From Sulfitobacter geojensis (GTDB taxonomy: Bacteria > Pseudomonadota > Alphaproteobacteria > Rhodobacterales > Rhodobacteraceae), in NCBI RefSeq assembly GCF_000622325.1, contig NZ_JASE01000005.1, forward strand, positions 3,224,001-3,288,000: a stretch of DNA of 64,000 nt, read 5' to 3'. Positions within the stretch are counted from its first letter, which is position 1. Each line of letters opens with the position of its first letter. Both the position numbers and the translations under genes were made by a program. This document shows, one piece after another, positions 45,323 through 63,836 of the stretch. A model generated the notes under the pieces. That model ran no database searches. It saw only the letters and a list, made by a program, of their open reading frames with translations, and had not been told where the DNA came from.

Positions 45323-45325
45323 TCC

Positions 45326-46543: not shown

Positions 46544-46618
46544 CAGGTCGCATACGTGCTTGCGCGGCGCATCATTCCCCGTCAGCCTGATCGAAGTACC
46601 GACACAGGGGAACGACAC

Positions 46619-47707: not shown

Positions 47708-47750
47708 ACCGGCGCGCCAACCTATCCCTACTTCCGTGAAAGGCACCGCA

Positions 47751-48983: not shown

Positions 48984-49056
48984 CGCGGTTGCGGCCAGCA
49001 GACGAGGCGTGCCGCAGATGTGCCGACCCGACCAGCCCGCCTGTATGAGTCTAAGA

Positions 49057-49091
49057 GCAAGATGAAACGACGCCTTCGCCCTTCATCTTGC
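49057..49091. terminator. Hairpin between convergent gene clusters
   Basis: GCAAGATGAA (49057-49066) pairs perfectly with TTCATCTTGC (49082-49091) in the gap 48984-49159 between the enolase-superfamily gene and the RraA-like gene, which converge. It probably ends transcription of both clusters; T-tracts are not obvious. No gene is called in the gap. Confidence 0.55.
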
Positions 49092-49159
49092 CTGTAATCT
49101 CAAAAACAATGGTCGCCCTGAACACACCGTCCGCAGCTGTTAAAGCAACTGCTCTGCCC

Positions 49160-49852
49160 TCAGGTGCGCGAGGCCTCGAAAGCCGCCCATGCCGTTTCAA
49201 ACTCGGCAAATCCGATGCGCTTGCCCTTGGTTGCGTCCAGCACCACCTTTTCCGATTTGAACAGCTGGGCAATCGCCGCCTCAAGACGTGGAATAACATC
49301 ATCCGGGATCACCACAGCACCGTGGCGGTCGGCATGGATCAATGCGCCCGGTGCAACGCGCATGCCCATCACCTCAATCGGCGTATCAAAATCGATGACA
49401 TGTACAAAACCGTGGCTTGGCCCCACAGATCCCGCGACGACCGTGAACCCATCAGGCAGATCGCCCAGATCACGCATCACACCGTTCGTAAGCGCGCCGG
49501 TCAATCCGAAAGCTTTGTGAACATTGGTGTTTATTTCACCCCAAAAGGCACCGATGGCGTTCGGCACATCCATGTCCTGCACCACGGCAACAGCGGGGCG
49601 CGGACCCTGCGACATATATTTGTAGTAGGCCATGCGCCGTGCTTTGATCACTTCGGGCGGCTCTGACGGCGGGGTCACCGCCGCAATGCGGGCCGTGCGG
49701 GCGTAGCCCACCATCACCCCGTCCAAGGCGGAGGCAAACATGGTACCGCGTGTGAAATCGTCAAAGCCACGCTTGCCCTGCGCCACCTCGATGGCGTTGC
49801 AGACCGTGGGGGTATCGACCCGTTTCAGCAGATCAAACAAGCTGTCCTTCAT
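49160..49852 (-). CDS. RraA/HMG-CHA aldolase-like protein
   Basis: This 230-residue protein belongs to the RraA-like fold that also contains 4-hydroxy-4-methyl-2-oxoglutarate/4-carboxy-4-hydroxy-2-oxoadipate (HMG/CHA) aldolases. Segments include VDTPTVCNAIEVA (start), GALTNGVMRDL (GxxxDGxxRD-like site, with N for D) and IHADRHGAVVIPDD. In catabolic operons this fold usually cleaves oxo acids to pyruvate or oxaloacetate. The ATG at 49852 overlaps the MetE-like gene (ATGA). It is the last gene of the long minus-strand cluster. Confidence 0.85.
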   Translation of the reverse strand: MKDSLFDLLKRVDTPTVCNAIEVAQGKRGFDDFTRGTMFASALDGVMVGYARTARIAAVTPPSEPPEVIKARRMAYYKYMSQGPRPAVAVVQDMDVPNAIGAFWGEINTNVHKAFGLTGALTNGVMRDLGDLPDGFTVVAGSVGPSHGFVHVIDFDTPIEVMGMRVAPGALIHADRHGAVVIPDDVIPRLEAAIAQLFKSEKVVLDATKGKRIGFAEFETAWAAFEASRT

Positions 49853-50979
49853 GTTCTCTCTCCGGCCAAACGCGCACCCTGCGCCATAGCTTCCAGCTTG
49901 GCATAGGCGATTTGCGGATCGACCGCGCCGAAGCCTGCAAAGGTGCCGAAACCACAATCACTGCCGGCAATCACACGCTCTTGGCCGACGATATCCACAA
50001 AGCGTTCGATCCGTTGCGCCACGACCTCGGGATGTTCGACGAAATTGGTTTTTGTATCGACCACCCCGGGCACCAGCACCTTGTCATCGGGAATATCAGC
50101 GCGGCGATCGCGGAACACTGTCCACTCATGGGCATGGCGCGGATTGGAAGTTTCGAACAACACATATCGCGCCTTTGCGCCCATCAGCGTATCGAACACC
50201 TTGTCCATACCAATGTCACAGACATGGGGGCCTTCGTAATTCCCCCAACAGATATGAATGCGCACGCGGTCCTGCGGCACATCCTGCAAGGCATGGTTCA
50301 AGGCCTCAACATGGCCGCCCGCGATTTTCAGGAATTCTGCGTCTGTCAGATCGTTGAACAACATGTGGCGAGATAGGGCGAGGTCGGGGCAATCCAGTTG
50401 GACATCCAGCCCCGCGGCCACGATCGTCTCGTACTCCGCCTTCATCGCGTCGGCCAAAGCGGCCAGATAGGCGTCTCGGGTTTTGTAATAATCGTTCTGT
50501 AAGAACAGGGAAATCACCCCCGGCGAGGCCGCATTCATAAAGCCGCGTTCAACGCCGTGGGTCGCCATTGCATCCTTGAGGTTGGCAATGTCCTTTTGCA
50601 ATTCGCCCTGCCCTTTGCTTTTCACCTCACCGGTGCACATCGGACGGGCGTATTGCGGGGTGCCCCCGTCATCTGCCAGACGTTTCAGGAACGACGGGAA
50701 TTGTTTAAGGTCTGCGGGCGCATTGCGGGGACTGTCACCCGAGAAACCGGTGTAGCGGTCTTTCACGTAAGTGGCGTAACTGATTTTGGAGGTCTCGCCA
50801 TCACTCACGATATCGACGCCCGCCGCCACCTGCCGCGCCACAGTTTCTGCGACGGCAGTGGTCATGCAGGTGTCGAACGCCTGTGGGTCGTATGGGGCTT
50901 CATTCTCGCGGGCAAAGATAAAATCAACGACCTCCTGTTTGCGCGGCAACGATCCGACATGGGTGGATTTGATAGTCAT
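49849..50979 (-). CDS. MetE-like zinc-dependent alkyl/methyl transferase (cobalamin-independent type)
   Basis: This 376-residue protein corresponds to the C-terminal catalytic half of MetE and to related stand-alone enzymes (methionine synthase II-like, epoxyalkane:CoM transferase-like). All four zinc ligands are visible: His and Cys in RIHICWGN, Glu in VLFETSN and Cys in IAGSDCGFGTF. HVGSLPR at the N-terminus is typical. It lacks the N-terminal folate domain of MetE, so it may move an alkyl group from a non-folate donor to a thiol. It overlaps the RraA-like gene. Confidence 0.85.
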   Translation of the reverse strand: MTIKSTHVGSLPRKQEVVDFIFARENEAPYDPQAFDTCMTTAVAETVARQVAAGVDIVSDGETSKISYATYVKDRYTGFSGDSPRNAPADLKQFPSFLKRLADDGGTPQYARPMCTGEVKSKGQGELQKDIANLKDAMATHGVERGFMNAASPGVISLFLQNDYYKTRDAYLAALADAMKAEYETIVAAGLDVQLDCPDLALSRHMLFNDLTDAEFLKIAGGHVEALNHALQDVPQDRVRIHICWGNYEGPHVCDIGMDKVFDTLMGAKARYVLFETSNPRHAHEWTVFRDRRADIPDDKVLVPGVVDTKTNFVEHPEVVAQRIERFVDIVGQERVIAGSDCGFGTFAGFGAVDPQIAYAKLEAMAQGARLAGERT

Positions 50980-50980
50980 T

Positions 50981-51601
50981 TCAGATGTCCTTGTCTTTAT
51001 GGGCCATCAGCACAGAATGCTGTTGGGTTTCAGGATCTTCGGCCAGAAATCCGGTCAAACGCAGGCCACAGTTTTCAAGCGCCGTTGCATATTCCGCTGG
51101 GGAAAGGGACGCGTGATAAACCGTTTCGCCGCCTACGGTGCCGGTGGTTTCGCCCTCGCGCGGGCCCACAGTCACCAGCAATGTGCCCCCCGTTTTGAGA
51201 TGGCGGGCAAAGCGGGGCAGCACCACGCGCTGTTCGTCCTGTGTAAGATGGAAAAAGCTATTCCACGCGATCAACCCGTCAAAGCATTCCCCCAGTTCAA
51301 GGGACCGCATGTCCGCCAGCCTCCAGTCACCGGAAGGCCAGCGGTCACGCAGGATGTCCAGCATAGGTGGGGAAAAATCGGTCCCCGTGACAGAAAACCC
51401 TTCCGCGATGAACCACCGCGCAATGGGATCGCCGCTGCCACAACCCACATCCAGAACGCGACCACCGGGCGGCAGACAGGCCGTGAAACGGGCCAGCCAA
51501 CGGGCCTCGAACAGGGACTTCGACCTTTGGGCGTCAAAGGTCGAGGCCTGCCTGTCATAGACATCGCGCGTCTGGTTTGCCGGGTCGCTTACCCTTTCCA
51601 C
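50981..51601 (-). CDS. Class I SAM-dependent methyltransferase
   Basis: This 206-residue protein has SAM motif I VLDVGCGSGDPIARWF (about 49-64), motif II TGTDFSPPMLDI and CFDGLIAWNSFFHL, as in small-molecule methyltransferases. The GTG at 51601 overlaps the end of the bicupin gene by 13 bases. One base separates it from the MetE-like gene downstream, so methyl or alkyl handling by the two is likely linked; the acceptor is unknown. Confidence 0.85.
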   Translation of the reverse strand: MERVSDPANQTRDVYDRQASTFDAQRSKSLFEARWLARFTACLPPGGRVLDVGCGSGDPIARWFIAEGFSVTGTDFSPPMLDILRDRWPSGDWRLADMRSLELGECFDGLIAWNSFFHLTQDEQRVVLPRFARHLKTGGTLLVTVGPREGETTGTVGGETVYHASLSPAEYATALENCGLRLTGFLAEDPETQQHSVLMAHKDKDI

Positions 51602-52557
51602 GTCGGTCCCGCTGCATCGTCCGTGCCGATAATGTGGTAAAGCGCCGCCTCGCCGGTCATGGCCGGCACGGCGGTATGATCAAGATTTTCGGGCACCGAC
51701 ATGGTATCACCCGGAGCCAGTGTGGCGGAACCGCCCTCATAATCAACGCGCCAATGTCCTTTGACCGGCATCAGCACAGACGGGCGATCGTGCCGGTGGG
51801 GCTGCGCACGGGCAGAGGCACGCGTGAGCAGATCGATCTCAAAGCCGGGCTTGTCGCGGATGATCCCCTGCGCACCGATCACCTTGCACGGCGTGCCGGA
51901 TTGGGCCAATGCCACCATATCAAGGTAGCGGCGCACATATCCGCCAACCACCTGCATCGGCGACGGCGTATCGACCTGCGCCAATTCATCAGCCGTCAGC
52001 AAGGGCATCGGGTCCACCCCGTCAGGCAATGTCTGTCCCTGCTTGCTATCATAAAGCTTGCCATCGTTCCCCAGAACCAGCCCGTGCGCGCGGGCATCTT
52101 CGATCACATGCGGTGCCCAGATCACGCCCCCGCCGGCATCGTCACCGCCCAGCACAGCCATGATCATTCCGTAATCGGTGCCAACGTTTTCAAACCCGCG
52201 AAAGATGTTGGTTGGAATGTTAAAGATATCGCCCTCTTCAAGGATCACCTCGCCCGCATCGCCATGTTCGCCCCAAAAGAACCGCCAGCGGCCTTTGAGA
52301 ACAAAGAACACCTCGGCCGTACGGTGGTTGTGCAACGAGTTACGGCATTTAGGCGGCTGACCTGCTGCCCCGATGTTAAATCCGTGCGGCAGTGCGATAT
52401 GCACATGCTGGTCGGGGCTTTCCGACACACCGCCCCCGATGATCGTGAAGTTTTCCTTTTGATCGCTGCCGGGCGTGTGGGCGTCGATAAATGCGGTCTT
52501 GCAAGGGCGCAGATCGCCGTAACGTACGATCCGGTTTTCCATTTCAATCGGGGTCAT
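51589..52557 (-). CDS. Bicupin protein
   Basis: This 322-residue protein has two cupin domains. The first (about 65-135) has the metal-binding LHNHRTAEVFFVLKGRW (HxH and Glu) but its second motif, NIPTNIFRGFEN, has Arg in place of the usual histidine. The second (about 240-305) has PHRHDRPSVLMPVKG (HxH) and VPENLDHTAV (final His). Bicupins of this type include dioxygenases (gentisate-like) and isomerases. The gene overlaps its upstream neighbour and the methyltransferase. Function unknown. Confidence 0.82.
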   Translation of the reverse strand: MTPIEMENRIVRYGDLRPCKTAFIDAHTPGSDQKENFTIIGGGVSESPDQHVHIALPHGFNIGAAGQPPKCRNSLHNHRTAEVFFVLKGRWRFFWGEHGDAGEVILEEGDIFNIPTNIFRGFENVGTDYGMIMAVLGGDDAGGGVIWAPHVIEDARAHGLVLGNDGKLYDSKQGQTLPDGVDPMPLLTADELAQVDTPSPMQVVGGYVRRYLDMVALAQSGTPCKVIGAQGIIRDKPGFEIDLLTRASARAQPHRHDRPSVLMPVKGHWRVDYEGGSATLAPGDTMSVPENLDHTAVPAMTGEAALYHIIGTDDAAGPTWKG

Positions 52558-53182
52558 TTCTGGTCCTTAGTTGATCACGCAGCCTGGCCACTTCGGCCTC
52601 AAGCTCGGTATTGCGGGTCTCCAGCCGCGAAAGTTCCGGCCCGACGAGGGCTGTCATCTCGGCTGTGTCAAATCGGGGTGTGATGAATTGCGGGCAGTTC
52701 CAGTCCCACGCAGCAACGCGGATAAGCATCACGCGTTGCACCCGCCCCTGTCCTTCGGTGGACAGCTGCGCGACAAGATCGGGCGCTTCTTCGGCGTTAA
52801 GCAGCGTCGCGTGCCCCTGTAGTTTCAGCCGCGTCTGCCGCGCGTAATCTATTGCGAAAACCGAGATACGGTCGTCACCGGCAAGATTGCCCTTGGTAAT
52901 CACCTGCCGGTTGCCAAGATAATCGGCAAACCCGATGGTGAAGGGGTCCAGCACCTTGAGAAATCCCACAGGGCCGCCGCGGTGCTGGATATACGGCCAG
53001 CCCATGCTGTTCACCGTGGCAATATAAAGCGTGCTACGGGCCGTCAGAAACGCCTGTTCCGGTTGGCCGAGCGGCTCATCCTGTTTTGCCTGATAGCGGG
53101 CGTCATATTTGCCCTTGCTGCCGATCTCGGCCTGCTGGGCCAATACGTCGGGCGTGAACATGATATCTGCGTAAGACGTCAT
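52544..53182 (-). CDS. Pyridoxamine 5'-phosphate oxidase-family (FMN-binding split barrel) protein
   Basis: This 212-residue protein has a PNPOx-like FMN domain (ARSTLYIATVNSMGWPYIQHRGGPVGFLKVLDPFTIGFADYLGNRQVITKGN, about 45-100) and a C-terminal coiled coil (ELSRLETRNTELEAEVARLRDQL, about 180-206). Most relatives are FMN-dependent redox enzymes with small substrates. It overlaps the bicupin gene and follows the SnoaL gene by 13 bases. A role in the cluster's redox chemistry is plausible but not shown. Confidence 0.82.
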   Translation of the reverse strand: MTSYADIMFTPDVLAQQAEIGSKGKYDARYQAKQDEPLGQPEQAFLTARSTLYIATVNSMGWPYIQHRGGPVGFLKVLDPFTIGFADYLGNRQVITKGNLAGDDRISVFAIDYARQTRLKLQGHATLLNAEEAPDLVAQLSTEGQGRVQRVMLIRVAAWDWNCPQFITPRFDTAEMTALVGPELSRLETRNTELEAEVARLRDQLRTRNDPD

Positions 53183-53195
53183 CGTCGTGCCCCGC

Positions 53196-54164
53196 TCAGC
53201 CGGTTTGCAGCAATATCTGTTTCCAGATCATCGCGTCGTCATAAAGTGTGTATTCGCGCCGCAATCCCCAAGGGCCGAATTCCGCGTGACTGATGCCCAG
53301 CACGTAAACCTCCTTGCCAGTCGGTGTGCCAAACGCGCCCCACCCGTCATGCTTGCCCGTCAAGGACCAGCGCACCGCAGCGCGCGGCGGCATCAAGGGA
53401 TCATCCCGCCCGATCGCGTGATCGATCTTGAATTCGGCGTTCGGGAAGGACGCGCGCAATCCCATCCAGAATGCATCAACCGATCCGTGACTGTGGCCCG
53501 TCGCCCCACCGGGATATTGCGTCACCACCGCGCGGTCGTATTCCGACGGGATCAGCGCCATATCGGCCCCCATGATCGCGGTCAGGATATCCGCGTATTT
53601 TTGCCCCCACGGGTTGTCATTACCGCGCCCCTTATACGGGCCCGGCTGATCAATTGCCGGTGTCAAAGGGCGCGTGCAATGATCCGGCCCGCCTTCGCGT
53701 TCGATCAGATCAGCGGCGTATTGTTTCGGCTCCTGCCCCATTTGCCGCAGGATTGCGCCCTGATCGCGGATCAACCATTCATCATTGATCTGATTGTTGA
53801 TCGCGTGACAGTCGGCCATGATCCGGTAGACCAGTTTCTTGCCCGTCGCGGTCCCGTACACTCCGTCATTCATGTGGGTCGCTGTCGATAACAGCCGGTG
53901 CGAGGACAACATCCCCTGCTCGGGCGTGCCCGACCAGATCACGTCTTCGCCCAACAGCGTGCGGTCGGGAAACTCCGCCAATGTTGCCATCGTCGCCCCG
54001 ATCACCGATTTATTGCCAATGACCACCGATCCCGGAGAGCGCACCACAATATCATCCGAGTAGTACCGGTGCAGGGTCGCAATCCCGCGATCTTCCCAGA
54101 TTTCCTTGGTGATGCCGATGATGTAGTCGGGGAAGTCTTTGAATTTAGGGTCAAACCCTTGCAT
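53196..54164 (-). CDS. Two-domain SnoaL/NTF2-like protein
   Basis: This 322-residue protein is made of two SnoaL-like (NTF2-fold) domains (about 10-155 and 170-320). The first ends in the cluster signature IxDxWxxxDxxxxLxQxG (INDEWLIRDQGAILRQMG); the second contains RAAVRWSLTGKHDGWG and SHAEFGPWGLRREYTLYDD. SnoaL folds catalyse aldol-type cyclisation, isomerisation, dehydration or simply bind ligands; no catalytic residue is assigned. It lies five bases downstream of the LacI gene and is the third SnoaL gene of the cluster. Confidence 0.85.
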   Translation of the reverse strand: MQGFDPKFKDFPDYIIGITKEIWEDRGIATLHRYYSDDIVVRSPGSVVIGNKSVIGATMATLAEFPDRTLLGEDVIWSGTPEQGMLSSHRLLSTATHMNDGVYGTATGKKLVYRIMADCHAINNQINDEWLIRDQGAILRQMGQEPKQYAADLIEREGGPDHCTRPLTPAIDQPGPYKGRGNDNPWGQKYADILTAIMGADMALIPSEYDRAVVTQYPGGATGHSHGSVDAFWMGLRASFPNAEFKIDHAIGRDDPLMPPRAAVRWSLTGKHDGWGAFGTPTGKEVYVLGISHAEFGPWGLRREYTLYDDAMIWKQILLQTG

Positions 54165-54168
54165 GTCG

Positions 54169-55176
54169 TTATCCTTGTAGTGTGCGGGCAGAGCCGCGAA
54201 TGATCAAAGGTCCGTCGATGCAAATCCGCTGCGGCGGCGCGTCGACATTTTCAATACGAGTCATCAAAAGTTCGATGGTTTTGGACACCATTTCATTGGC
54301 GCGCTGGCGCACCGTGGTCAGGTTGTAACTGGGCCATGCCGCGATTTGCACATCGTCATAGCCGACAACGGACACATCGTCGGGAACGCAAATTCCCAAT
54401 TCAAAGCGCAGCACATCCATCACGGCAAAGGCCATGTGATCGTTGGTCACAAACACCGCTTCGGGGGGATCGTCACGATCAAACATCGCCCGTGCCGCAT
54501 CCTGCGCCGTTTCGAAATCGAAGTTTCCGATAGAGCGCATGGCCAGTTTGATTCCCCCGGCCATCAACCCCGCTTTAAACCCCGCCTCGCGGTCAATCTG
54601 CGTTGATGCGCCTTCCCACCCTGCAATATGTCCGATCCTGCGATGCCCGCCGGCAAGCAAAAACTCGGCCAGCTTGCGCCCGCCTGCCATATTGTCAGAA
54701 GTCACGCTGGACAGCCGGTCGTCAAACTGGTCGCGGTTGAACAGGACAATCGGGATACCGGCATCCTCGCACCGCCGTGTCAGGTCGTTGGACACCCCGA
54801 CAGAGGCAATGACAATCCCGTCCACCTGATAATCCAGCAGCTCGTCAATCACCGTCTGCGTCGCGTCGTTGTCGTTGGACGCCATAAACACCAGCACGTG
54901 ATATCCTTGCGCTTGCAGGCTTTTGGACAGGCGTTCGATCGCTTCGGGATAGAACTGGTTCTCAAGGTACGCGACCACCAGACCGATGATACGGCTGCGT
55001 CCGGTGATCAGACTACGGGCCAGCACATTAGGACGATACCCCAGTGCGCGTGCCGCCGTGCGTACCTTGGTCGCCGTCGCAGGGCTGACACTGGCACCCG
55101 GCGTGAAAACGCGGCTTACCGCCGAGCGGCTGACCCCCGCCAGCGCTGCCACATCAATAGAAGTCACTTTTGCCAT
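54169..55176 (-). CDS. LacI-family transcriptional regulator
   Basis: This 335-residue regulator has the N-terminal LacI HTH SIDVAALAGVSRSAVSRVF with the hinge helix region ARSLITGRSRIIGLVV, and a periplasmic-binding-protein-like effector domain (VVAYLENQFYPEAIERLSKSL...; VEAVFVTNDHMAFAVMDVLRFE; DDVSVVGYDDVQIAAWPSYNLTTVRQ). These bind sugars or related compounds. It is inside the cluster it probably controls; the operator candidate is the palindrome at 63713-63726. Its start overlaps the SDR stop by one base. Confidence 0.93.
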   Translation of the reverse strand: MAKVTSIDVAALAGVSRSAVSRVFTPGASVSPATATKVRTAARALGYRPNVLARSLITGRSRIIGLVVAYLENQFYPEAIERLSKSLQAQGYHVLVFMASNDNDATQTVIDELLDYQVDGIVIASVGVSNDLTRRCEDAGIPIVLFNRDQFDDRLSSVTSDNMAGGRKLAEFLLAGGHRRIGHIAGWEGASTQIDREAGFKAGLMAGGIKLAMRSIGNFDFETAQDAARAMFDRDDPPEAVFVTNDHMAFAVMDVLRFELGICVPDDVSVVGYDDVQIAAWPSYNLTTVRQRANEMVSKTIELLMTRIENVDAPPQRICIDGPLIIRGSARTLQG

Positions 55177-55943
55177 CAGTCCGCCGTCCAGCCCCCGTCC
55201 ACCATCATTGCTGTTCCCGTCACCATCGCTGACGCGTCAGAGGCCAGAAATAATGCCGCCCCCATGATGTCTTCGACCTCGGCCACACGTGGCAATTTGA
55301 TCTTGTCCATGATCCATGCAAACCGTTCGGGATTGTCGAACGTGGGTTGGGTCAGGGCCGTGCGCACAAAGGTCGGGCAAATCGTGTTAATCCGTATACC
55401 CGCCTTGCCCCATTCAACGGCCATCGCTTTGACCATGCCCTCAACCGCGTGTTTGGAGGTGCAGTAAACCGATCGCTCGATGCCGCCCACATGCCCCATC
55501 TGGCTCGAGATATGGATGATCGAGCCGCCCTTGCCCGCCGCAATCATGCCCTGCGCCGCTTCGACCGACAGAAAATACGCCGCCCGTACATTCACATTCA
55601 TCACCGCATCAAAATCCTCTGGCGTGGCGTCAAGCGCTGGCGCATGGCGCGCCATGCCAGCGGCGTTCAGCACGACGTCAAAGGTTTCTTGCGCCTTCAT
55701 CGCAGCACTCAGGGCCGGTTGATCGGCAATGTCCAGTTCCAGGGCCTCCGCCGAAAAACCCTTGGCAGTCATGGCACTGACCAGCTTCTCCAACACATCA
55801 CCCCGGCGCGCGGCGCAAACCACATGGGCACGGGCCTCGGCCAGCGCCACCGCACAGCCCAATCCAATGCCCGAGGAGGCACCGGTGACCAAGGCCCGCT
55901 TGCCCGTCAAATCGAATTTGGGCGTCTGGGGAAGGGTTTTCAC
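55176..55943 (-). CDS. SDR-family oxidoreductase
   Basis: This 255-residue classical SDR has the coenzyme motif TGASSGIG (about 20-27), NAAG (about 92), the catalytic Ser in IIHISSQMG and Tyr/Lys in YCTSKHAVEG, and C-terminal MMVDGGWTAD. AARR after beta-2 is compatible with NADP(H) or NAD(H). It probably oxidises or reduces a hydroxyl/keto intermediate. It overlaps the upstream SnoaL gene by four bases and the LacI start by one. Confidence 0.92.
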   Translation of the reverse strand: MKTLPQTPKFDLTGKRALVTGASSGIGLGCAVALAEARAHVVCAARRGDVLEKLVSAMTAKGFSAEALELDIADQPALSAAMKAQETFDVVLNAAGMARHAPALDATPEDFDAVMNVNVRAAYFLSVEAAQGMIAAGKGGSIIHISSQMGHVGGIERSVYCTSKHAVEGMVKAMAVEWGKAGIRINTICPTFVRTALTQPTFDNPERFAWIMDKIKLPRVAEVEDIMGAALFLASDASAMVTGTAMMVDGGWTAD

Positions 55944-56986
55944 AATGCGACTCCTGTGTCTGGATCAAAGCCCGCGCGCGCCTTGTTGAATTCCCGCATG
56001 CGCGCAAAGACATCGACGCCGATTTGGTCATAGACGTGGAGCAGGTCCACCAACACCCAATTCTCCCGGATCAGCCCCTGCTCGATCCGCCAGAAATCAA
56101 GACTGCGCATCTGCACCTTTTGCCCCGCGGGCGCGATGCCCAGCCATCCGTCGCAGGTGATCGACTGTGACATATCCGGCCATCCCGTGACGGCGGCATA
56201 ATTGCGGTCCCCGAAGAAGTGGAACGTCACCTCATCGCTGTTCAACCCCCGATCCGGCATGGCATTCAAAAACGGGATCTGGTGCCAATTACGAAACCCC
56301 TTGATGCCGCGCGCCGTGCCGATCCCCGCAGGCCCGTACCACGTCATACGCGGGTGCCAGAAGCGCGGCATCTGCATCACCTCGGGCCCTCCCTGGCTGG
56401 GATAGCGCTGCAAATGGTCCAGCATATCCACGACAAGCTGGCAACTCGCAGCCCCCAGTGCCGCATCATAAGGCGCGGCCACAATCCCGTCATTGCTCGC
56501 CGGTGCCGGCACATGCCACTCGCGCCCCAGCGACGGCACCATCGGCCAGGCCCCGGCCTGCATCATCACCTCGGGAATATCCCAAAGCGCCTGCATCTCC
56601 ACCACCTTGCCCTCAACCACACGGTAAAATTCGTGAAACCGCATGTGCACCAGATGCCCTGTCGGCGGAATGTCCAACCACGGCCCCACAAATGTTCCGC
56701 AATAAAATCCGCCGCAGCCGATCCAGTCGTCCGCTTGCGCCGTTGGCCCCGCCATCACGATATGATCGCGCCTTTCCAGATCCGGCACCGCCGCAAACAA
56801 GGGCGCATAGACCGCATCGAAATAGGCATCCACACCAACGATGGTTTCAAAGGGAAACGCCAGACGGAACACCACGTCCGGCGCACAGATTTCATGCAAA
56901 GCCGCGCGCACGGCAACTGCATCAAAATCATACATCGCAGCCCTTAACCCCGCGAATGTTGTCTTATGCCCTGTCGGCCTGTCCAT
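55940..56986 (-). CDS. Two-domain SnoaL/NTF2-like protein
   Basis: This 348-residue protein contains two NTF2-fold domains (about 20-165 and 185-325), both of the 'ester cyclase' type. The second domain ends DFWRIEQGLIRENWVLVD then LLHVYDQIGVDVF; the first ends VVEMQALWDIPEVMMQAG, an altered version of the same signature. The single-domain protein at 58384 is clearly homologous to the second domain. It lies between hisD-like and SDR genes and overlaps the SDR. Activity is unknown. Confidence 0.85.
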   Translation of the reverse strand: MDRPTGHKTTFAGLRAAMYDFDAVAVRAALHEICAPDVVFRLAFPFETIVGVDAYFDAVYAPLFAAVPDLERRDHIVMAGPTAQADDWIGCGGFYCGTFVGPWLDIPPTGHLVHMRFHEFYRVVEGKVVEMQALWDIPEVMMQAGAWPMVPSLGREWHVPAPASNDGIVAAPYDAALGAASCQLVVDMLDHLQRYPSQGGPEVMQMPRFWHPRMTWYGPAGIGTARGIKGFRNWHQIPFLNAMPDRGLNSDEVTFHFFGDRNYAAVTGWPDMSQSITCDGWLGIAPAGQKVQMRSLDFWRIEQGLIRENWVLVDLLHVYDQIGVDVFARMREFNKARAGFDPDTGVAL

Positions 56987-57052
56987 TCTTCATCTTGCCT
57001 TTAAATTTCGGAAAGTTTGAGGGTCAGCACCTCTCAAAGATCGCAAAGCGAT

Positions 57053-58381
57053 CTAATCCGCCGCCCTCAAAACCGGCGCGCCTTCACCATAAGGCACATT
57101 CACCCCGCCATAGCGCCGCACCCTGACGTTGCACTGCTCGGCGTGCCCGACGAAGCCTTCCAACATACACAACCGCGACCCATAGGCCCCGATCTCTGCC
57201 GCAGCCTCATCTGTAGTGATTTTCTGGTAAGAGTGGGTTTTCAGATATTTACCAACCCAAAGCCCCCCCGTATAGCGCCCCGCCTTTTTGGTCGGCAAAG
57301 TATGGTTGGTCCCGATCACCTTATCCCCGTTAGCAACATTGGTGCGCGCGCCAAGGAACAGCGCCCCGTAACAGGTCATCTTTTCCAAAAACCAGTCGTC
57401 GCGGTCGGTCATCACCTGCACGTGTTCGGATGCAATATCATCCGCCACCGCCAGCATCTCGTCATAGGTGTCACAGACAATCACCTCGCCGTATTCCTCC
57501 CAAGACACCCGCGCTGTGCCCGCCGTTGGCAAAACCTCCAGCAGCCGGTCAATCTCTGCCAAGGTTTCATCAGCAAGCTTGCGCGAATTCGTGAGCAAAA
57601 CGCAGGGGCTGTTATACCCGTGTTCCGCCTGCCCCAGCAAATCCGTTGCACAGATTTCCGCATCCACGGTTTCGTCAGCAATCACCATTGTTTCCGTCGG
57701 TCCCGCGAACAGATCAATGCCGACACGACCGAACAACTGCCGCTTGGCCTCCGCAACAAAGGCGTTCCCCGGTCCGACAAGCAGATGCACAGGATCAATC
57801 GTTTCCGTGCCGATGGCCATGGCCCCCACAGCCTGTATACCGCCCAGCACGTAAATCTCGTGCGCGCCGCCAAGGTGCATCGCCGCGATCACCGCCGGGT
57901 TCGGTTCGCCGTCGAAAGGCGGCGTGCAGGCGATGATGCGCGGCACCCCTGCCACCGCAGCCGTTGCCACCGACATATGCGCCGACGCCACCATCGGGAA
58001 TTTGCCACCCGGCACATAACAGCCCACCGATTGCACCGGAATGTTCTTATGCCCGAGGATCACGCCCGGTTGCATTTCAACCTCGATGTCCAGCATGGAA
58101 TCGCGCTGTGCCTGTGCAAAGCGGCGCACGTTCTCTTGCGCAAACTTCAAATCGGCCATCTCTTGCGGGGAAACGCGGGCGATCAACGCCTCAATCTCTG
58201 CCGCGCTCAACTTGAAAGCGGGCGGCGCATAGCTGTCGAACTTTTGCGACAACTCCCGCACGGCAGCATCCCCGCGCACTTCGATGTCTTTCAGCGTCGC
58301 CTCGACCACGTCACGTGTACGCGCATCGTCTTCGCTGCGCGCGTCATCCGGTTTGCCGCGCTTGAGATAGGTGACTGCCAT
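57053..58381 (-). CDS. Histidinol dehydrogenase-superfamily NAD+-dependent dehydrogenase (catabolic type)
   Basis: This 442-residue enzyme has the HisD fold. Zinc ligands are conserved: Gln and His in GQAEHGYNS (about 249-252), Asp in GDKVIGTNH (about 351) and His in EGFVGHAEQ (about 412); the catalytic Glu-His pair is in IASEHVQVM (about 317-318). Histidine-biosynthetic genes are absent, and the operon is catabolic, so a different primary or vicinal alcohol is likely to be oxidised to a carboxylate, as in the related 2,3-dihydroxypropanesulfonate dehydrogenase HpsN. Two bases separate it from the SnoaL gene upstream. Substrate unproven. Confidence 0.86.
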
Positions 58382-58383
58382 TC

Positions 58384-58923
58384 TTAAACCTCTTTATTGT
58401 CGGGACGGGGCGGCGTTTTCTCTCCGCGATCAAAGGCTTCCCAGCCCTCTCCGCCAAAAACATCTACACCGAGCTGCGCCAGTACATGAGGGAAATCGAC
58501 CATCACCCAATTGTCCTCGATCTTGCCCTCACTGACTTTCCAGAAATCCATATAGCGGATTTCGATACGCTTGCCGGTTGGTGCCACGCCCATGAATTCA
58601 CCCGAATGGGTCGCCTCCTGACGGCCAAAGGCCGCCGCCCATTCGCCCATGAACATGCGCGCCTCATCCACGCAAACCTTGTCCGAAAATGCGGCCTGAA
58701 ACGGACGTTGCCAGTTATCCTGAAACGCCTTTAGCCCCGTTTTCGTGCCGCAGCCGGTATTGCCCATCCATCTAAAGCTCTCGTGGAAGAATGCGCCGAT
58801 CCCGTCAATGGTGTGGTCATTCAACCCGTCCACCATGCCTTCGATCACGCGCTTGGTCTCGGCAGTTTTGCTCATATCCGTGTCGCGCGTCAGCACCGCC
58901 TGTTCTGGTCTGGCCCCTTTCAT
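58384..58923 (-). CDS. Single-domain SnoaL/NTF2-like protein
   Basis: This 179-residue protein (or 163 residues from the ATG at 58875) is one NTF2 domain ending [18 protein letters not shown] then [13 protein letters not shown], which aligns residue by residue with the second domain of the protein at 55940. The upstream gap to the ABC permease holds the palindrome at 58935-58952. It is the first SnoaL gene in transcription order. Function unknown; it may be a ligand-binding isomerase or dehydratase. Confidence 0.85.
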
Positions 58924-58934
58924 CCGCGCACCAC

Positions 58935-58952
58935 AGGCTTTTGCAAAAGCCT
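58935..58952. repeat. TTTTGCAAAA-centred palindrome
   Basis: AGGCTTTTGCAAAAGCCT is a perfect 18-bp palindrome in the 55-base gap between the permease and SnoaL genes, with the same core as the opgH terminator palindrome (2064-2087). Inside the operon it may be an mRNA processing or partial-termination hairpin. Confidence 0.6.
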
Positions 58953-58978
58953 CCCCAAAATTCGTTCCCGAATTTGCT

Positions 58979-60139
58979 TCATCCCTTCACCGCTCCCGCT
59001 GTTAATCCACTGACAATCTGACGCTGGAAAACCATGACCAGCAAAAACAACGGCGCGGTGATCGACACCGCAGCCGCGACCGCTTCGACCTGATCTGTTG
59101 TGGTGGTCTCGCGGTTGAAATAACCCGCAATCGCCGGGACCATCGTCTGGTTCTGCGCATCCAGCAGCAACGAAGTCACAAGAAAATCGTTGTATCCCAG
59201 CAGAAAGCTGAACAGCCCCGTGGTGATGACACCGGGCCACATCACCGGCATGATCACACGGCGAAATGCCTGAAAATGCGAACAGCCATCTACGCGCGCA
59301 GCTTCATCCAACTCTGCTGGAATGTTCTGGAAGAATGATCGCAGCATCCATATCGTAAACGGCTGGTTGATCGACACCAACACGGCAATCACCGCCCAGG
59401 GTTGACCATAAAGCGTTGGCGACAGATCGCCAAAGATCGGCCGCAGAATTTCGGCGGAGTTGATGAACCACGGCAAATATCCCGCCACCAAAACCGAATG
59501 CGGCAAAGCACGGAAAATCAGCGCGAGGATCAGCAACCAGAATGCGAGATCCGAGCCCGACCGCGCCAACCCGTATCCCGCAAGCGTGCCCACTGTCAGC
59601 GAAATCGTCACAACACCGGCCGTCACCAACATCGAGTTCATAAAATTACGATAGAATTCGTTTTCGCCCCAGACGGCGACGTAATGCTGCGTGGTAAAGC
59701 CAACAACCGGCTGCCCCAAGGGGCCAAGCACCGCATTCAAAGGTTCAAGGACCAGCGGCAAAAGGCCAAAGAAGAGCAACAAAAACACCAGGCCATAAAC
59801 CGCCGCTCCCAAGAGCCAGCCAAGCACGGTCCAGCCTGCGGGGCTGTAGCGGTTCACCAGTTGTGGCAACCGCGTGAACATCCAGCGAATAGCGACGTAC
59901 AAAACCGCCAGTCCCGCAAGCAGATCAAGGATCGACAGCCCATCGCCGCGCGCCAGAGTATTGGGACCAAAAATCACACTCCACGGATTTTGAGCAAAGG
60001 CATCGACCGGCGATTTCACACTCATCACCGCAATCCACAGGATCGGGAAAGCAGCGATCGCGCACCAGAACACCAGAAACGTGTTTGAGGAAAGCCGCAG
60101 GGCGAGCGACTGGCGCATGGCTTTGGACGTGGTGCTCAT
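58979..60139 (-). CDS. Sugar-type ABC transporter permease (MalG/UgpE-like)
   Basis: This 386-residue inner-membrane protein has a type I ABC importer permease plan, with the EAA-loop DEAARVDGCSHFQAFRRVIMPVMWPG (about 277-302) that docks the ATPase. It is longer than typical MalG (about 280) because of an extra N-terminal membrane pair and a large loop (about 40-145). TGATG overlap couples it to the first permease. It belongs with the neighbouring ATPase, permease and binding protein as one uptake system. Confidence 0.92.
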   Translation of the reverse strand: MSTTSKAMRQSLALRLSSNTFLVFWCAIAAFPILWIAVMSVKSPVDAFAQNPWSVIFGPNTLARGDGLSILDLLAGLAVLYVAIRWMFTRLPQLVNRYSPAGWTVLGWLLGAAVYGLVFLLLFFGLLPLVLEPLNAVLGPLGQPVVGFTTQHYVAVWGENEFYRNFMNSMLVTAGVVTISLTVGTLAGYGLARSGSDLAFWLLILALIFRALPHSVLVAGYLPWFINSAEILRPIFGDLSPTLYGQPWAVIAVLVSINQPFTIWMLRSFFQNIPAELDEAARVDGCSHFQAFRRVIMPVMWPGVITTGLFSFLLGYNDFLVTSLLLDAQNQTMVPAIAGYFNRETTTTDQVEAVAAAVSITAPLFLLVMVFQRQIVSGLTAGAVKG

Positions 60140-61164
60140 CAGTGCGCGCCTCCTTTGTGGTCCCGCCACGTGCGGCGCAGCGGCAAGATCAACAGCAAAA
60201 CAATCCCGATCATCGTCAGCATGGCGCTGGCCGACGCCCGTGCAATCGCCCTGTTGCCTGCATCATCCGGCGTCAGGAAATCAACGGTCAGCCACTGCAG
60301 CGAAATAACATGGGCCTGTGATCTGAAACCGATGATCTCGTCAAACACACGATAACAATCCATCAAATGGATCAGCGCGATAAACACGATCAGGGGCATC
60401 AGATGGGGGATGATCACATGGCGCAGACGTTCCCAACGCGACGCGCCGTCGATCACGGCCGATTCCAGTGTGTCCATGTTCACGGTCTGTAAACCCGCGT
60501 AGAAAATCACAAAGGCAAAGGGCGCGACGTGCCAAACGCGGTAGAAGTACATTAGTAATTCAATCGTCCAGGCCTGCGCGAACATAGAGATATTGGTGCC
60601 TGTCCACTGCTCCATCATCGCAGTCAAAATGCCGTCGCCCACAAACAACCAGTAGATCGACAGCGACCCGATGACCGGTGTGATAATGAAGGGCAGCAGC
60701 GATATGAAAATCACCGGTCCGCGCAACGCTCTGGCGGCATTGTTAACCGTCAGCGCGATCAGCAATCCAACCCCGATCACCAGTGGCAGCGTCAACAGGG
60801 TGAACATCAACGTGAACCGCAGCGCCTTCCAAAAGTCGATTTGCAGGATTTCGCGGAACTGGCCGGAGCCGAGGGCGTTCCAGACCTTATCCATTTGCAG
60901 AACGTTGCGATAGCTTTGCAGGCCGACCCATTGCGTTGTTGTCTGGATCTTACCGTCATCCCCGATAACCGGCACGGTTTTCAGCTCTGTCACACAGGTT
61001 TGCGTGATGAAACCGGGCGTGCATGTTTCGACCTCAAGCTGTTGCATCACAGGTTGGGTAATCTGGAATGACTGAATGAAAACCGACACCAAAGGCAGCG
61101 CAATAAAGAGAAACATCATAAAGACGGAGGGGCCAATGAAGGCAAAGAAGGTCTTGGATTTCAC
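60139..61164 (-). CDS. Sugar-type ABC transporter permease (MalF/UgpA-like)
   Basis: This 341-residue permease starts at the GTG at 61164 (AAAGGGAA upstream); the ATG at 61218 would add a basic stretch without membrane character. It has six or more membrane helices, a periplasmic insert (VETCTPGFITQTCVTELKTV, two cysteines) after helix I, and the EAA-like loop LESAVIDGASRWERLRHVIIPHLMP. It pairs with the MalG-like permease. An 11-bp stem-loop separates it from the binding-protein gene. Confidence 0.92.
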   Translation of the reverse strand: MKSKTFFAFIGPSVFMMFLFIALPLVSVFIQSFQITQPVMQQLEVETCTPGFITQTCVTELKTVPVIGDDGKIQTTTQWVGLQSYRNVLQMDKVWNALGSGQFREILQIDFWKALRFTLMFTLLTLPLVIGVGLLIALTVNNAARALRGPVIFISLLPFIITPVIGSLSIYWLFVGDGILTAMMEQWTGTNISMFAQAWTIELLMYFYRVWHVAPFAFVIFYAGLQTVNMDTLESAVIDGASRWERLRHVIIPHLMPLIVFIALIHLMDCYRVFDEIIGFRSQAHVISLQWLTVDFLTPDDAGNRAIARASASAMLTMIGIVLLLILPLRRTWRDHKGGAH

Positions 61165-61251
61165 AGGCTTCCCTTTCTTTCTTGATGTCTTGGATGAGCT
61201 TGGCTGCAGGCATCGCAATGCCCCCGGCGAAACACATCATCAGGGGGGCGC

Positions 61252-61279
61252 GGGCAGGTCGGATGGCACCGACCTGCCC
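61252..61279 (-). promoter_or_regulatory. Intercistronic stem-loop after the binding-protein gene
   Basis: GGGCAGGTCGG (61252-61262) pairs perfectly with CCGACCTGCCC (61269-61279) around ATGGCA, a few bases after the binding-protein stop. Without a T-tract it looks like the stabilising hairpin often found between binding-protein and permease genes, which raises binding-protein mRNA levels. Confidence 0.6.
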
Positions 61280-61285
61280 TAAAGC

Positions 61286-62506
61286 TTACTTTAGCACACC
61301 GGCCTCTTTGGCAGCGGTGGCATAGGCTTCTTCAATCGCAACAAGTGTTGCTGCGGCATCGCGCTCACCGGTCAAAAAGGCCGGAATTTCGTTGCCGAGC
61401 GCGGTATGCAACAGGCCCATCTGCGTGGTGGACGGATAGGCAGGCGGCGCGGGGTTTGCGGTTGCTGTGGCAATTGCACCTTCCGACAGAGGGCCGGGTG
61501 TGAAACCGGGCACCAGCCAGATCGCGGCGTCATTGTTGGCCGTGACCATCTCTGTGTCCATGCCTTCCATCGCAAGCTTAAAGGCCGCATCTGCCTCTTC
61601 ATCGGAAATATTGGCGGCAACCACGATACCGTCCCACCACAACGTCGTGGCAGGCGCACCCCCCGCCATCGCAGTCGGTGCCGCGGCCATCTTGACCTTG
61701 CCGACAACCTGACTTTCGGCTTCGTCATTCATCGCCCCTGCGCGGGACGCCCAAAGGTTCGCCATTGCGATTTTGCCCTGCTGGAACTGCTGCTGCACAT
61801 AGGTTGAATCGCTCACAAGAACTTCGGGGTCCATGAATTCCATACCCGCTTTCATTGTTTCAAGTGCCTTGAGGCCAGCATCGGAATTCACGGCGGTCGT
61901 GTTGTCCGCGTTGAACAGATTGCCGCCAAAACCGGGATACATGTTCACGAATTCTTGCGCGAGGTTCCAACCGGATTTCATCGTCGCACCCAATGGATAT
62001 TCGACCACACCCGCTTCCTTGATCTTAGCCGCTGCGGCATAGACCTCGTCCCAAGACGTGGGCGTGGCAATGCCCAGATCAGACAGAATATCCTCACGGT
62101 ACATCAAGTGCTGTGTGTTCACCATCATTGCGACGGCCATGATTTTGCCGTCGATGCGGATCAACTGGTTGGGCGTCAGGTTCGCACCGTATTTCGCGAC
62201 CAGATCATCCAGCGGGCGGATCGTTTCTGCGTTCAGCAGCGGTGTCACAGTGCCGTTCGATACGCCACCAAGGTGATAGAGTGACGGGTTCGCTTCAAAA
62301 GCTGCGGGTTGTTTCGTGCGGAATTCCTGATCCAGCTCCGCTTGAAAATTGCCGCATTCGGCCATCGCATCAGTGACCGCTTTCCATGCTTCGAACCCTG
62401 CCGACAACATTTTGACTTCGGTCTTGTTTTCATAGGAACATGCTGCAAATGCAGTGCTTCCCATCAAGCTAATCGCACCTGCAAGTGCTAGTTTTTTCAA
62501 CATCAT
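61286..62506 (-). CDS. Extracellular solute-binding protein of sugar-type ABC importer
   Basis: This 406-residue protein has a signal peptide (MMLKKLALAGAISLMGSTAFA, cleavage about 21) and a family 1 binding-protein body (LVAKYGANLTPNQLIRIDGKIMAVAMMVNTQHLMYREDILSDLGI..., TPTSWDEVYAAAAKIKEAG). GGGAG lies before the ATG at 62506. Such proteins capture sugars, sugar alcohols or sugar acids in the periplasm. The ligand cannot be read from sequence. It is second in the operon after the ATPase. Confidence 0.93.
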   Translation of the reverse strand: MMLKKLALAGAISLMGSTAFAACSYENKTEVKMLSAGFEAWKAVTDAMAECGNFQAELDQEFRTKQPAAFEANPSLYHLGGVSNGTVTPLLNAETIRPLDDLVAKYGANLTPNQLIRIDGKIMAVAMMVNTQHLMYREDILSDLGIATPTSWDEVYAAAAKIKEAGVVEYPLGATMKSGWNLAQEFVNMYPGFGGNLFNADNTTAVNSDAGLKALETMKAGMEFMDPEVLVSDSTYVQQQFQQGKIAMANLWASRAGAMNDEAESQVVGKVKMAAAPTAMAGGAPATTLWWDGIVVAANISDEEADAAFKLAMEGMDTEMVTANNDAAIWLVPGFTPGPLSEGAIATATANPAPPAYPSTTQMGLLHTALGNEIPAFLTGERDAAATLVAIEEAYATAAKEAGVLK

Positions 62507-62583
62507 TTTGCAAACTCCCTGTTGCATTTCATTGGGTGCACCTTGCAAGACTGCACCTGCCTTTTCCCCATTCGGGGACGTCC

Positions 62584-63636
62584 CTAACCCAAACTGATCC
62601 GCGCGCCTGTGGCTTTATCAAACACATGACAAATATCCGCCGGCACAGAAAACGACACAGCATCCCCGATGCCCGCGCGATATTCCTTATGCGCTTTGAC
62701 CGACACCATCTGCCCGCCCGCCTTGACCGCCAACATGACCGCATCCCCAAGCAATTCGATGGTATAAACCGGTGCATTGATCTGTGCCGGTGCGTCGACC
62801 ACATCCGCATCCTCTGCACGAAAGCCCAAGGTGACCTCGCCATCGGCAGCCCTAAGCCCCTCAATGCGCACGTTCGCCCCTTCGAAAACACCACCGCGGA
62901 TCGTGCCGTCCATCAGGTTCATCGCAGGTGACCCGATGAAGGATGCCACAAAGGTATTCGCGGGATTGTCATAGATTTCCGTTGGGGTGCCGACCTGCTG
63001 AATACGCCCTTGCTTCATCACGACGACGCGGTCGGCGAGCGTCATCGCCTCGATCTGGTCGTGGGTTACGTAAACGGTCGTCACCTTCAGCTCATGGCTG
63101 AGGTTCTTGATCTGTGCCCGCGTGCTGACCCGCAGTTTGGCATCCAGATTGGACAGCGGTTCGTCCATCAGAAAAACGTTGGGTTCGCGCACAATCGCCC
63201 GCGCCAGGGCCACCCGCTGGCGCTGTCCGCCCGACAGTTCAGCAGGCTTGCGATGCAGGAAATCATCAAGTTCGACCATGGCACTGGCGCGGCGCACCCG
63301 CGCGTCATGGGTCGCGGGATCCGCTTTGCGCACCTTCAGCGGGAACCGGATGTTCTCGTAAACATTCATATGCGGGTACAACCCGTATGACTGGAACACC
63401 ATCGCAACATCGCGGTCTTTCGGGTCCAGATCGTTCACCACCTTGCCGTCGATGATGATCTCGCCCTCGGTGATGTCCTCAAGCCCTGCAATCATCCGCA
63501 TGGTTGTGGTTTTGCCGCAGCCCGAAGGGCCGAGCAGCACCAGAAACTCCTCATCCGCGATTGTCAGGTCAAAATTTTCGACACCAACAAAACTGCCCCA
63601 ACGTTTGTTGATATTGCGCAGTTGAATTTCAGCCAT
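62584..63636 (-). CDS. Sugar-type ABC transporter ATP-binding protein (UgpC/MalK type)
   Basis: This 350-residue ATPase has Walker A GPSGCGKTTTMRM (about 37-49), signature LSGGQRQRVALARAI, Walker B VFLMDEPLSNLDAKL and the MalK-type C-terminal TOBE domain (about 240-350: IGSPAMNLMDGTIRG, VTLGFRAEDADV). Such ATPases energise uptake of sugars, polyols or glycerol 3-phosphate. AAAGGGAC precedes the ATG at 63636. It is the first gene of the long cluster; a 14-bp palindrome lies 78 bases upstream. Confidence 0.95.
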   Translation of the reverse strand: MAEIQLRNINKRWGSFVGVENFDLTIADEEFLVLLGPSGCGKTTTMRMIAGLEDITEGEIIIDGKVVNDLDPKDRDVAMVFQSYGLYPHMNVYENIRFPLKVRKADPATHDARVRRASAMVELDDFLHRKPAELSGGQRQRVALARAIVREPNVFLMDEPLSNLDAKLRVSTRAQIKNLSHELKVTTVYVTHDQIEAMTLADRVVVMKQGRIQQVGTPTEIYDNPANTFVASFIGSPAMNLMDGTIRGGVFEGANVRIEGLRAADGEVTLGFRAEDADVVDAPAQINAPVYTIELLGDAVMLAVKAGGQMVSVKAHKEYRAGIGDAVSFSVPADICHVFDKATGARISLG

Positions 63637-63712
63637 GGATGTCCCTTTCGACCGACCAGCAGCGGTACCAATCATACGTTCGGTCAAGTCGGGAACATTT
63701 TCAACATATTTT

Positions 63713-63726
63713 TGCACACGTGTGCA
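63713..63726. promoter_or_regulatory. Candidate LacI-family operator
   Basis: TGCACACGTGTGCA is a perfect 14-bp palindrome with a central CG, the usual form of LacI/GalR-family operators, 77 bases upstream of the first gene of the ABC/SnoaL cluster, which itself encodes a LacI-family regulator. Confidence 0.7.
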
Positions 63727-63742
63727 TCGCCAGCTAAAAGAA

Positions 63743-63775
63743 GTGGTAGTTGCTTTTAAATCAAGCAACTACCAC
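63743..63775 (-). terminator. Terminator of the right-edge gene
   Basis: GTGGTAGTTGCTT (63743-63755) pairs perfectly with AAGCAACTACCAC (63763-63775) around TTAAATC. Read on minus the stem is followed by TTCTTTTAG, about 60 bases past the stop of the partial gene at the right edge, so it fits that gene's intrinsic terminator. Confidence 0.75.
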
Positions 63776-63836
63776 GCTTTCTGAACGTATGAAGTGAAGT
63801 AACTGAAACTGCGTCTCAGGCCGGAGCGATTCGAAA

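Follow-up and report, generated by a model that had tools for sequence, protein, structure and literature searches.

The stretch analysed here (the window) comprises 64,000 nucleotides of Sulfitobacter geojensis (contig NZ_JASE01000005.1, positions 3,224,001 to 3,288,000). Between its positions 49160 and 63636 lie 15 open reading frames, all on the minus strand, which make up an uptake-and-breakdown cluster. An initial annotation had described a compact and tightly spaced cluster at this place, and the description holds: the 15 frames are present, and the gene families it named were matched by Pfam and NCBIfam. Its three proteins of the SnoaL fold are likewise present, and they can be refined to one single-domain protein of 179 amino acids and two double-domain proteins of 322 and 348 amino acids. 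The genes are given below in the order of transcription, in which genes 1 to 8 run from the ATPase of an ATP-binding cassette (ABC) importer to a short-chain dehydrogenase/reductase (SDR), and genes 9 to 15 from the LacI regulator to the RraA-like protein.

62584..63636, minus strand: ABC importer ATPase, UgpC/MalK type (NF008653, 456 bits against a cutoff of 432; ATG at 63636)
61286..62506, minus strand: periplasmic solute-binding protein, SBP_bac_1 (PF01547, E 7.6e-23)
60139..61218, minus strand: ABC permease 1 (start uncertain; weak UgpA/GlcT-type matches)
58979..60139, minus strand: ABC permease 2 (MalG/GlcU-type matches under cutoff; start inferred from gene length in relatives)
58384..58923, minus strand: SnoaL-fold protein, single domain, 179 amino acids, SnoaL179 (PF07366, E 6e-21)
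57053..58381, minus strand: HisD-superfamily dehydrogenase (PF00815)
55940..56986, minus strand: SnoaL-fold protein, two domains, 348 amino acids, SnoaL348 (PF07366 in two stretches)
55176..55943, minus strand: SDR oxidoreductase (PF13561; NCBIfam KduD/gluconate-dehydrogenase-like, under cutoff)
54169..55176, minus strand: LacI-family regulator (PF00356, PF13377)
53196..54164, minus strand: SnoaL-fold protein, two domains, 322 amino acids, SnoaL322 (PF07366, E 1e-12; PF12680)
52544..53182, minus strand: PNPOx-type flavoprotein, accessory (PF01243, E 6.5e-9)
51589..52557, minus strand: bicupin (PF07883 twice; N-terminal HxH...E site)
50981..51601, minus strand: S-adenosylmethionine (SAM) methyltransferase, accessory (PF13649)
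49849..50979, minus strand: MetE-like zinc methyltransferase (PF01717, E 1.7e-12)
49160..49852, minus strand: RraA-like protein, class II pyruvate aldolase fold (PF03737, E 4.6e-16)
63743..63775, minus strand: terminator-like hairpin upstream of the ATPase gene (13-bp stem, T-rich tail)

Judged by the frame coordinates with refined starts, 9 of the 14 junctions overlap or are at most 4 bases apart. The overlaps measure 1 base (permease 1/permease 2), 4 bases (SnoaL348/SDR), 1 base (SDR/LacI), 14 bases (PNPOx/bicupin), 13 bases (bicupin/SAM methyltransferase) and 4 bases (MetE-like/RraA-like), and the short gaps measure 2 bases (SnoaL179/HisD-like), 4 bases (LacI/SnoaL322) and 1 base (SAM methyltransferase/MetE-like). 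The other five junctions are of 13, 55, 66, 67 and 77 bases, the gap of 67 growing to about 124 with the later start of permease 1. The RraA-like gene probably begins at 49852, which gives a protein of 230 amino acids and matches the length in relatives. The weak PDB relatives of the binding protein include sugar binders and SmoF. Promoter-like sites (4 against 6.9 expected from shuffled sequence) and terminator-like sites (18 against 15.9) occur in the window at chance level, and no Rfam family was matched within 45000-64000.

Co-occurrence in other Rhodobacterales, which had been put forward as a check on the cluster, was surveyed in 148 genomes of the order, with each marker gene scored at its own threshold. 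All five markers were found together in 54 genomes and any marker in 81. SnoaL348 was present in 73 genomes (12 of these best matches are weaker than E 1e-75, with 31-41% identity where listed, and are paralogue-grade), the bicupin in 75 (the matches in G030 and G079 being partial and distant, at 45-48%), the MetE-like gene in 68, the HisD orthologue in 78 and the RraA-like gene in 62. A bicupin match accompanies SnoaL348 in 73 of 73 genomes, both are present in all 68 genomes with the MetE-like gene, and the latter was never found without the bicupin. Separate occurrence, the contrary outcome that had been envisaged, is infrequent: the HisD orthologue is missing in only 2 of the 68 MetE, 3 of the 75 bicupin and 2 of the 73 SnoaL348 genomes, and it stands without the bicupin in 6. 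Pairwise Fisher tests of the five markers, which ignore kinship, gave p values from 1e-40 to 7e-22. Within the genus itself the distribution is patchy, SnoaL348 and the bicupin being present in 4 of 8 genomes with the source genome counted. In genome G009 the set is split over two sites, HisD, SnoaL348 and MetE at one and the bicupin and RraA at the other; the co-occurrence is therefore not mere physical linkage. The cluster is thus a conserved metabolic unit, whose core is present in about half of the order genomes examined, and its substrate is therefore one that these bacteria often meet. Whatever this substrate is, the cluster very probably serves a single dedicated catabolic pathway. The functional unit proposed at the outset also stands at the level of the predicted proteins, which would provide uptake, a dehydrogenase of the alcohol-to-acid type, a methyl-transfer enzyme of the zinc/thiol type and an aldolase-type protein.

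The core of the cluster was defined from 40 regions, fetched from genomes positive for the bicupin or SnoaL348 and limited in length to 20 kb or by the end of the contig. A separate identity threshold was used for each gene (at least 60% for the ATPase), and one region, L077, was chosen at a SnoaL locus without the bicupin. The bicupin, by which most regions were picked, occurs in 39 regions, followed by LacI (36), HisD (34), SnoaL322 (33), SDR (31), the ATPase (28), the binding protein and both permeases (27 each), SnoaL348, MetE and RraA (26 each) and SnoaL179 (18). The 11 core-tested genes are all present in 19 of these regions from positive genomes. The PNPOx protein and the SAM methyltransferase, which the initial annotation had counted as parts of the pathway, were found in only 4 and 1 of the 40 regions, respectively; they are accessory and not core. 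The binding protein of the relatives is of two types, 67-85% and 38-46% identical to that of the window, and the same is true of permease 1, while the ATPase is 71-85% identical alongside either type. The catabolic part is therefore more constant than the uptake part.

Apart from these genes, an alpha/beta hydrolase is present in 22 of the 40 regions. It immediately precedes RraA in the records of R. conchae, Martelella, Roseibium, Paracoccus, Marinovum and Octadecabacter, and the nearest relatives of the R. conchae protein are PcaD-type enol-lactonases; the window has no alpha/beta hydrolase at that position. A lactonase-like amidohydrolase, near L-fucono-1,5-lactonase, is found in 3 regions. 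On the plus strand of the window (46556-48983), a Zn alcohol dehydrogenase and an enolase-superfamily gene resembling galactonate/gluconate dehydratases converge on the cluster. The former (46556-47707) lies near the cluster in 2 of 40 regions. The latter (47736-48983) was rejected as a member, being present in 112 of the 148 genomes, mostly at other places; of the 40 regions, 5 have it close to the cluster, and none of these also has the PcaD-like hydrolase.

The set or its core is also carried by annotated plasmids of Ruegeria, Marinovum, Octadecabacter, Paracoccus, Alloyangia, Roseibium, Martelella and Sinorhizobium medicae. In a plasmid of Vibrio pelagius (L104, 6382-22984), importer permease 1 and the ATPase are 64% identical to those of the window and are accompanied by four SnoaL-type genes, with no relative of HisD or RraA within the 31 kb read. 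This copy adjoins genes for a tetrameric sarcosine oxidase and PurU. On a plasmid of the haloarchaeon Halobellus limi (L105, 10608-17001), a MetE-like gene (40% identical) comes after five SnoaL-type genes in a row, and an ABC importer is encoded close by; this suggests transfer between domains. The cluster thus looks like a mobile, horizontally exchanged metabolic module. Its copies vary in content. R. conchae has five SnoaL genes; an amidase gene is present in the copies of Martelella, S. medicae and Alloyangia (Pfam-confirmed in the first two); the copy of a close relative, G106 (L063, 3602-5058), has M19 dipeptidase and RidA-family genes between the bicupin and MetE; and in G009 (L129, 4459-5754) an MGH1-like glycoside hydrolase lies inside the ABC/HisD gene run. 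Beside the main module, Martelella (L107), Alloyangia (L109) and, in part, Roseibium (L110) have a further, paralogous one that comprises a SnoaL protein of about 390 amino acids, an ABC importer and LacI; in L107 and L109 it adds a second HisD and an amidase.

The HisD-like dehydrogenase passes the TIGR00069 cutoff (425 against 243.8), and its nearest PDB chains are those of sulfopropanediol 3-dehydrogenase (HpsN). According to a paper on HpsN (PMC11382572), His126 of the 122-126 motif recognises the sulfonate and sets HpsN apart, and the hydroxyl beside the oxidised CH2OH is bound at the zinc. At the position of this His, the cluster enzyme has Met (Met130) in 35 of 35 sequences, window included, and its identity as HpsN, a dihydroxypropanesulfonate (DHPS) dehydrogenase, was rejected for this reason. 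A biosynthetic HisD was rejected as well: the source genome has three PF00815 proteins (562, 453 and 443 bits), of which the cluster enzyme scores the lowest, and its motifs differ. The 562-bit protein is likely the enzyme of histidine biosynthesis. Given the kinship to HpsN and the replaced His, the cluster enzyme probably acts on a CH2OH that adjoins a zinc-binding group, oxidising it in a substrate that is not a sulfonate. Two side observations concern the same family. The 453-bit gene of the source genome (G000:C5:1516647-1517867, locus L139), which lies outside the window, has a motif that ends in His as in HpsN and is a candidate DHPS dehydrogenase. Pairs of HisD and SDR genes are also present at L116, L117 and L119, alongside TAXI-TRAP importers and genes of the AtuA-like/cyclase or aldolase/citrate-lyase kind; these are candidates for a wider family of pathways.

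From the motif alignments of five of the proteins, homologues with stops or with less than 45% identity had been dropped (HisD 1, MetE 1, RraA 1, SnoaL348 3, SnoaL179 12). In the MetE-like protein, H242, C244, E276 and C342, which we take to be the zinc ligands, are invariant in 26 close sequences and are kept in relatives of 40% and 26% identity. The gene is the sole PF01717 match of the source genome. Since it is absent from 80 of the 148 genomes, it is hardly the housekeeping methionine synthase of the order; this role was considered unlikely also in view of three MetH-like pieces elsewhere in the genome. The family profile of the RraA-like protein finds the 4-carboxy-4-hydroxy-2-oxoadipate (CHA) aldolase 3NOJ (E 2.9e-4), with an Arg-Asp pair aligned that is presumably catalytic in the aldolase. 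In the bicupin (32 of 39 located homologues plus the window), H76, H78 and E82 of the N-terminal HxH...E site are invariant in 33 sequences. Its AlphaFold model has a mean predicted local distance difference test (pLDDT) score of 78.8, which is moderate, and superposes with a template modelling (TM) score of about 0.5 on 3-hydroxyanthranilate dioxygenase (3-HAO), oxalate decarboxylase, quercetinase and salicylate dioxygenase. The bicupin may be a dioxygenase, a decarboxylase or an isomerase.

The substrate had earlier been guessed to be a polyol, a sugar acid or an alkylated compound. This guess was generic, and the contexts in relatives would point instead to a nitrogen-bearing, O-methylated carbocycle with a CH2OH on a tertiary alcohol. 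Indeed, enzymes for nitrogen bonds, multiple SnoaL proteins, a methyl-transfer enzyme, CH2OH oxidation and an aldolase of the CHA type together argue for an O-methylated carbocycle bearing amino acids. The mycosporine-like amino acids (MAAs), with which algae screen out ultraviolet light, answer to this description. Their core, 4-deoxygadusol, carries C1=O, C2-OCH3, C3-OH, C4H2, C5(OH)(CH2OH) and C6H2. It is proposed, as a tentative reading that may well prove wrong, that the cluster encodes a complete bacterial breakdown of MAAs to central metabolites; the substrate, every step and the order of the steps are our inference.

In such a pathway, the ABC importer would take the MAA in, and the SnoaL-fold proteins would release by hydrolysis the amino acids that are bound to the ring through imine or enaminone links. 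A thiol (homocysteine, which would become methionine) would then receive the 2-O-methyl group from the MetE-like zinc enzyme, and the HisD-like enzyme would oxidise the CH2OH of the tertiary alcohol, so that a carboxylate is formed. Opening of the resulting reductone ring by C2-C3 cleavage would fall to the bicupin, helped in many relatives by the PcaD-like hydrolase. The product of ring opening, HOOC-CH2-C(OH)(COOH)-CH2-CO-COOH, would be CHA, which the RraA-like aldolase could split into pyruvate and oxaloacetate. A carbon map from 4-deoxygadusol to CHA, derived by ourselves from the MAA structure, would place all seven core carbons. The SDR, the PNPOx protein and the SAM methyltransferase have no step in this scheme.

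The MAA reading is supported by the co-occurrence of the five markers over the 148 genomes, even where they are split as in G009, and by the match of the RraA profile to CHA aldolase. Further support comes from the MetE-like protein, which keeps its zinc ligands and is hardly a housekeeping enzyme, and from the HisD-like enzyme, which is kin to HpsN with the sulfonate His replaced. The relatives, too, speak for it, as they carry the PcaD-like hydrolase (22/40) and the lactonase-like amidohydrolase (3/40), together with amidase, RidA-family and M19 dipeptidase genes. A review (PMC3083659) cites Dunlap and Shick for the suggestion that Vibrio harveyi converts shinorine and porphyra-334 by hydrolysis into mycosporine-glycine, and it mentions bacterial formation of 4-deoxygadusol. 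The importer and SnoaL genes of V. pelagius would fit such a hydrolysis.

A number of findings, on the other hand, weigh against the breakdown of MAAs. The MetE-like gene is missing in 7 of the 75 bicupin genomes and in the stretches read from Paracoccus alcaliphilus, Roseibium, Alloyangia, Martelella and S. medicae, so that either other enzymes demethylate or the substrate there is unmethylated. The RraA-like gene is below its threshold in 14 of the 75 bicupin genomes. The HisD and SDR pair occurs also in quite different contexts, with AtuA-like, aldolase/citrate-lyase and TRAP genes, and may thus be a general pair for diol oxidation. In Roseibium, a TRAP importer stands directly before the run HisD-SDR-LacI-bicupin-hydrolase-RraA, beside the ABC importer. 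The MGH1-like glycosidase of G009 would fit any kind of glycosylated substrate. The picture of vibrios that only strip amino acids is not clean either, since the V. pelagius plasmid encodes, away from its SnoaL genes, a distant bicupin (32%), and in V. maritimus the 11 kb around the SnoaL genes include relatives of HisD (68%, cut by the end of the locus) and of the bicupin (44%) as well as an alpha/beta hydrolase. A scan for close relatives of the Vibrio SnoaL protein gave 9 loci, V. maritimus among them and V. harveyi absent, which leaves the expectation of such genes in V. harveyi unsupported without refuting it. The enzymes themselves add to the doubt. The MetE-like protein reaches 96.1 bits against 406 for the best NCBIfam equivalog, and it may have a role in methionine synthesis in the source genome, whose three separate partial MetH-like matches (E 1e-32 or better) do not pass the full-length cutoff. 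The RraA-like protein scores 19.7 bits with TIGR02798 (LigK/PcmE) against an equivalog cutoff of 304.5. In all 33 bicupin sequences an invariant Arg takes the position at which the canonical cupin motif presumably has its third His, so the protein may not be a dioxygenase, and its model fits oxalate decarboxylase as well as it fits dioxygenases. It is for the gaps in MetE, the HisD-SDR pair found elsewhere and the MGH1-like glycosidase that breakdown of MAAs is put forward with less than even confidence.

The unlikely but strongest competitor is a sugar, cyclitol or sugar acid that is O-methylated or branched (apiose- or valienol-like) and carries no amino-acid groups. HisD would here oxidise the CH2OH, MetE demethylate and RraA cleave. 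The sugar-type importer and the LacI regulator are what such a substrate would lead one to expect, the SDR is nearest to KduD and gluconate dehydrogenases, some relatives have the amidohydrolase near L-fucono-1,5-lactonase, and the gene run of one (L129) holds the MGH1-like glycosidase. However, neither the abundance of SnoaL genes (three in this cluster, five each in R. conchae and Halobellus) nor the amidase, RidA and dipeptidase genes of the relatives would be explained, and Pfam and NCBIfam found no kinase or sugar isomerase among the 15 genes.

A methoxylated aromatic or phenylpropanoid is an improbable substrate. It would be demethylated, oxidised at a side-chain CH2OH, cleaved in the ring by the cupin, hydrolysed by a PcaD-like enzyme and split by CHA aldolase, as in the 4,5-cleavage of protocatechuate. 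The bicupin fold does resemble aromatic-ring dioxygenases among others, relatives have the PcaD-like hydrolase, RraA matches CHA aldolase, and frames named by eye as pcaD- and pcaB-like (protocatechuate pathway), followed by a frame resembling the major facilitator superfamily, lie 4-6 kb away on the plus strand of the window (43154-45322). Yet the importer is of the carbohydrate type, the SnoaL genes would again have no role, and chemistry of the HisD/HpsN type, judged from PMC11382572, would call for a CH2OH with a zinc-binding neighbour, and benzylic alcohols have none.

Little credence can also be given to another nitrogenous substrate that would resemble a betaine or an alkaloid and carry methyl groups on N or S. 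The V. pelagius copy with its adjoining sarcosine oxidase and PurU genes, the Halobellus copy with an aminomethyltransferase-family gene in its vicinity and the Marinovum copy with dimethylsulfoniopropionate genes close by would suit it, but no gene of this kind belongs to the extra families that recur in 3 or more of the 40 regions, and a sugar-type importer is unusual for betaines. As for a sulfonate pathway related to that of DHPS, with the HisD-like enzyme as a variant HpsN and the SDR as an HpsO-like enzyme, the nearest PDB relative and the HisD-SDR pairs with TRAP importers elsewhere would favour it, but it is highly improbable because the His that is diagnostic according to PMC11382572 is Met in 35 of 35 sequences, another HisD-family gene of the same genome keeps this His, and no sulfo-lyase was matched by Pfam or NCBIfam among the 15 genes.

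Among the matches listed in literature searches, mainly of open-licence articles, no MAA catabolic genes were described; similarly, no account of this gene set was found among the matches listed (again mainly open-licence articles, with no bioRxiv preprints). The families are individually known; their combination and wide distribution are undescribed as far as these searches reach, and a single dedicated pathway that is new in this sense is well supported. Should MAAs be the substrates, which is possible though rather doubtful, this would be the first pathway recognised for their complete breakdown in bacteria, common in Rhodobacterales, with exchange that reaches rhizobia, vibrios and perhaps haloarchaea. 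Genes could then be named for the removal of a major class of ultraviolet-absorbing compounds from sunlit water, and SnoaL-fold and MetE-like proteins would gain new catabolic roles. Even if the substrates are not MAAs, the set of RraA, HisD, bicupin and MetE is a concrete pathway with a proposed last step. Annotated records (for example, that of R. conchae) call these genes histidinol dehydrogenase, ester cyclase and cobalamin-independent methionine synthase, and such annotations would mislead metabolic reconstruction.

Several of the enzymes resemble known systems and depart from them. The HisD-like protein is akin to HpsN (PDB 8v35, 8wwe; E about 1e-113), with the zinc and catalytic residues (Gln, His, Glu-His, Asp-Lys) invariant; it differs in Met130 and in a gene context that is not that of HpsN. 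The MetE-like protein has the four zinc ligands (His, Cys, Glu, Cys) of the MetE and core-MetE methionine synthases in place, but apart from its low score it is placed among catabolic genes and found in only 68 of 148 genomes. The RraA-like protein shares its family and the aligned Arg-Asp pair with the 4-hydroxy-4-methyl-2-oxoglutarate (HMG)/CHA aldolases of the LigK/ProA type (PDB 3NOJ), though far under the LigK/PcmE cutoff. The bicupin has the two-cupin architecture of 3-HAO, quercetinase, oxalate decarboxylase and salicylate dioxygenase, from which it differs by an identity of 10-16% among the matches listed and by the Arg that replaces the third His. Lastly, the SnoaL proteins belong to the family of the SnoaL/DnrD polyketide ester cyclases (PF07366), but SnoaL179 reaches only 39.3 bits against the NF033407 cutoff of 200, SnoaL348 and SnoaL322 have no such match, two of the three are double-domain, and their neighbours are catabolic.

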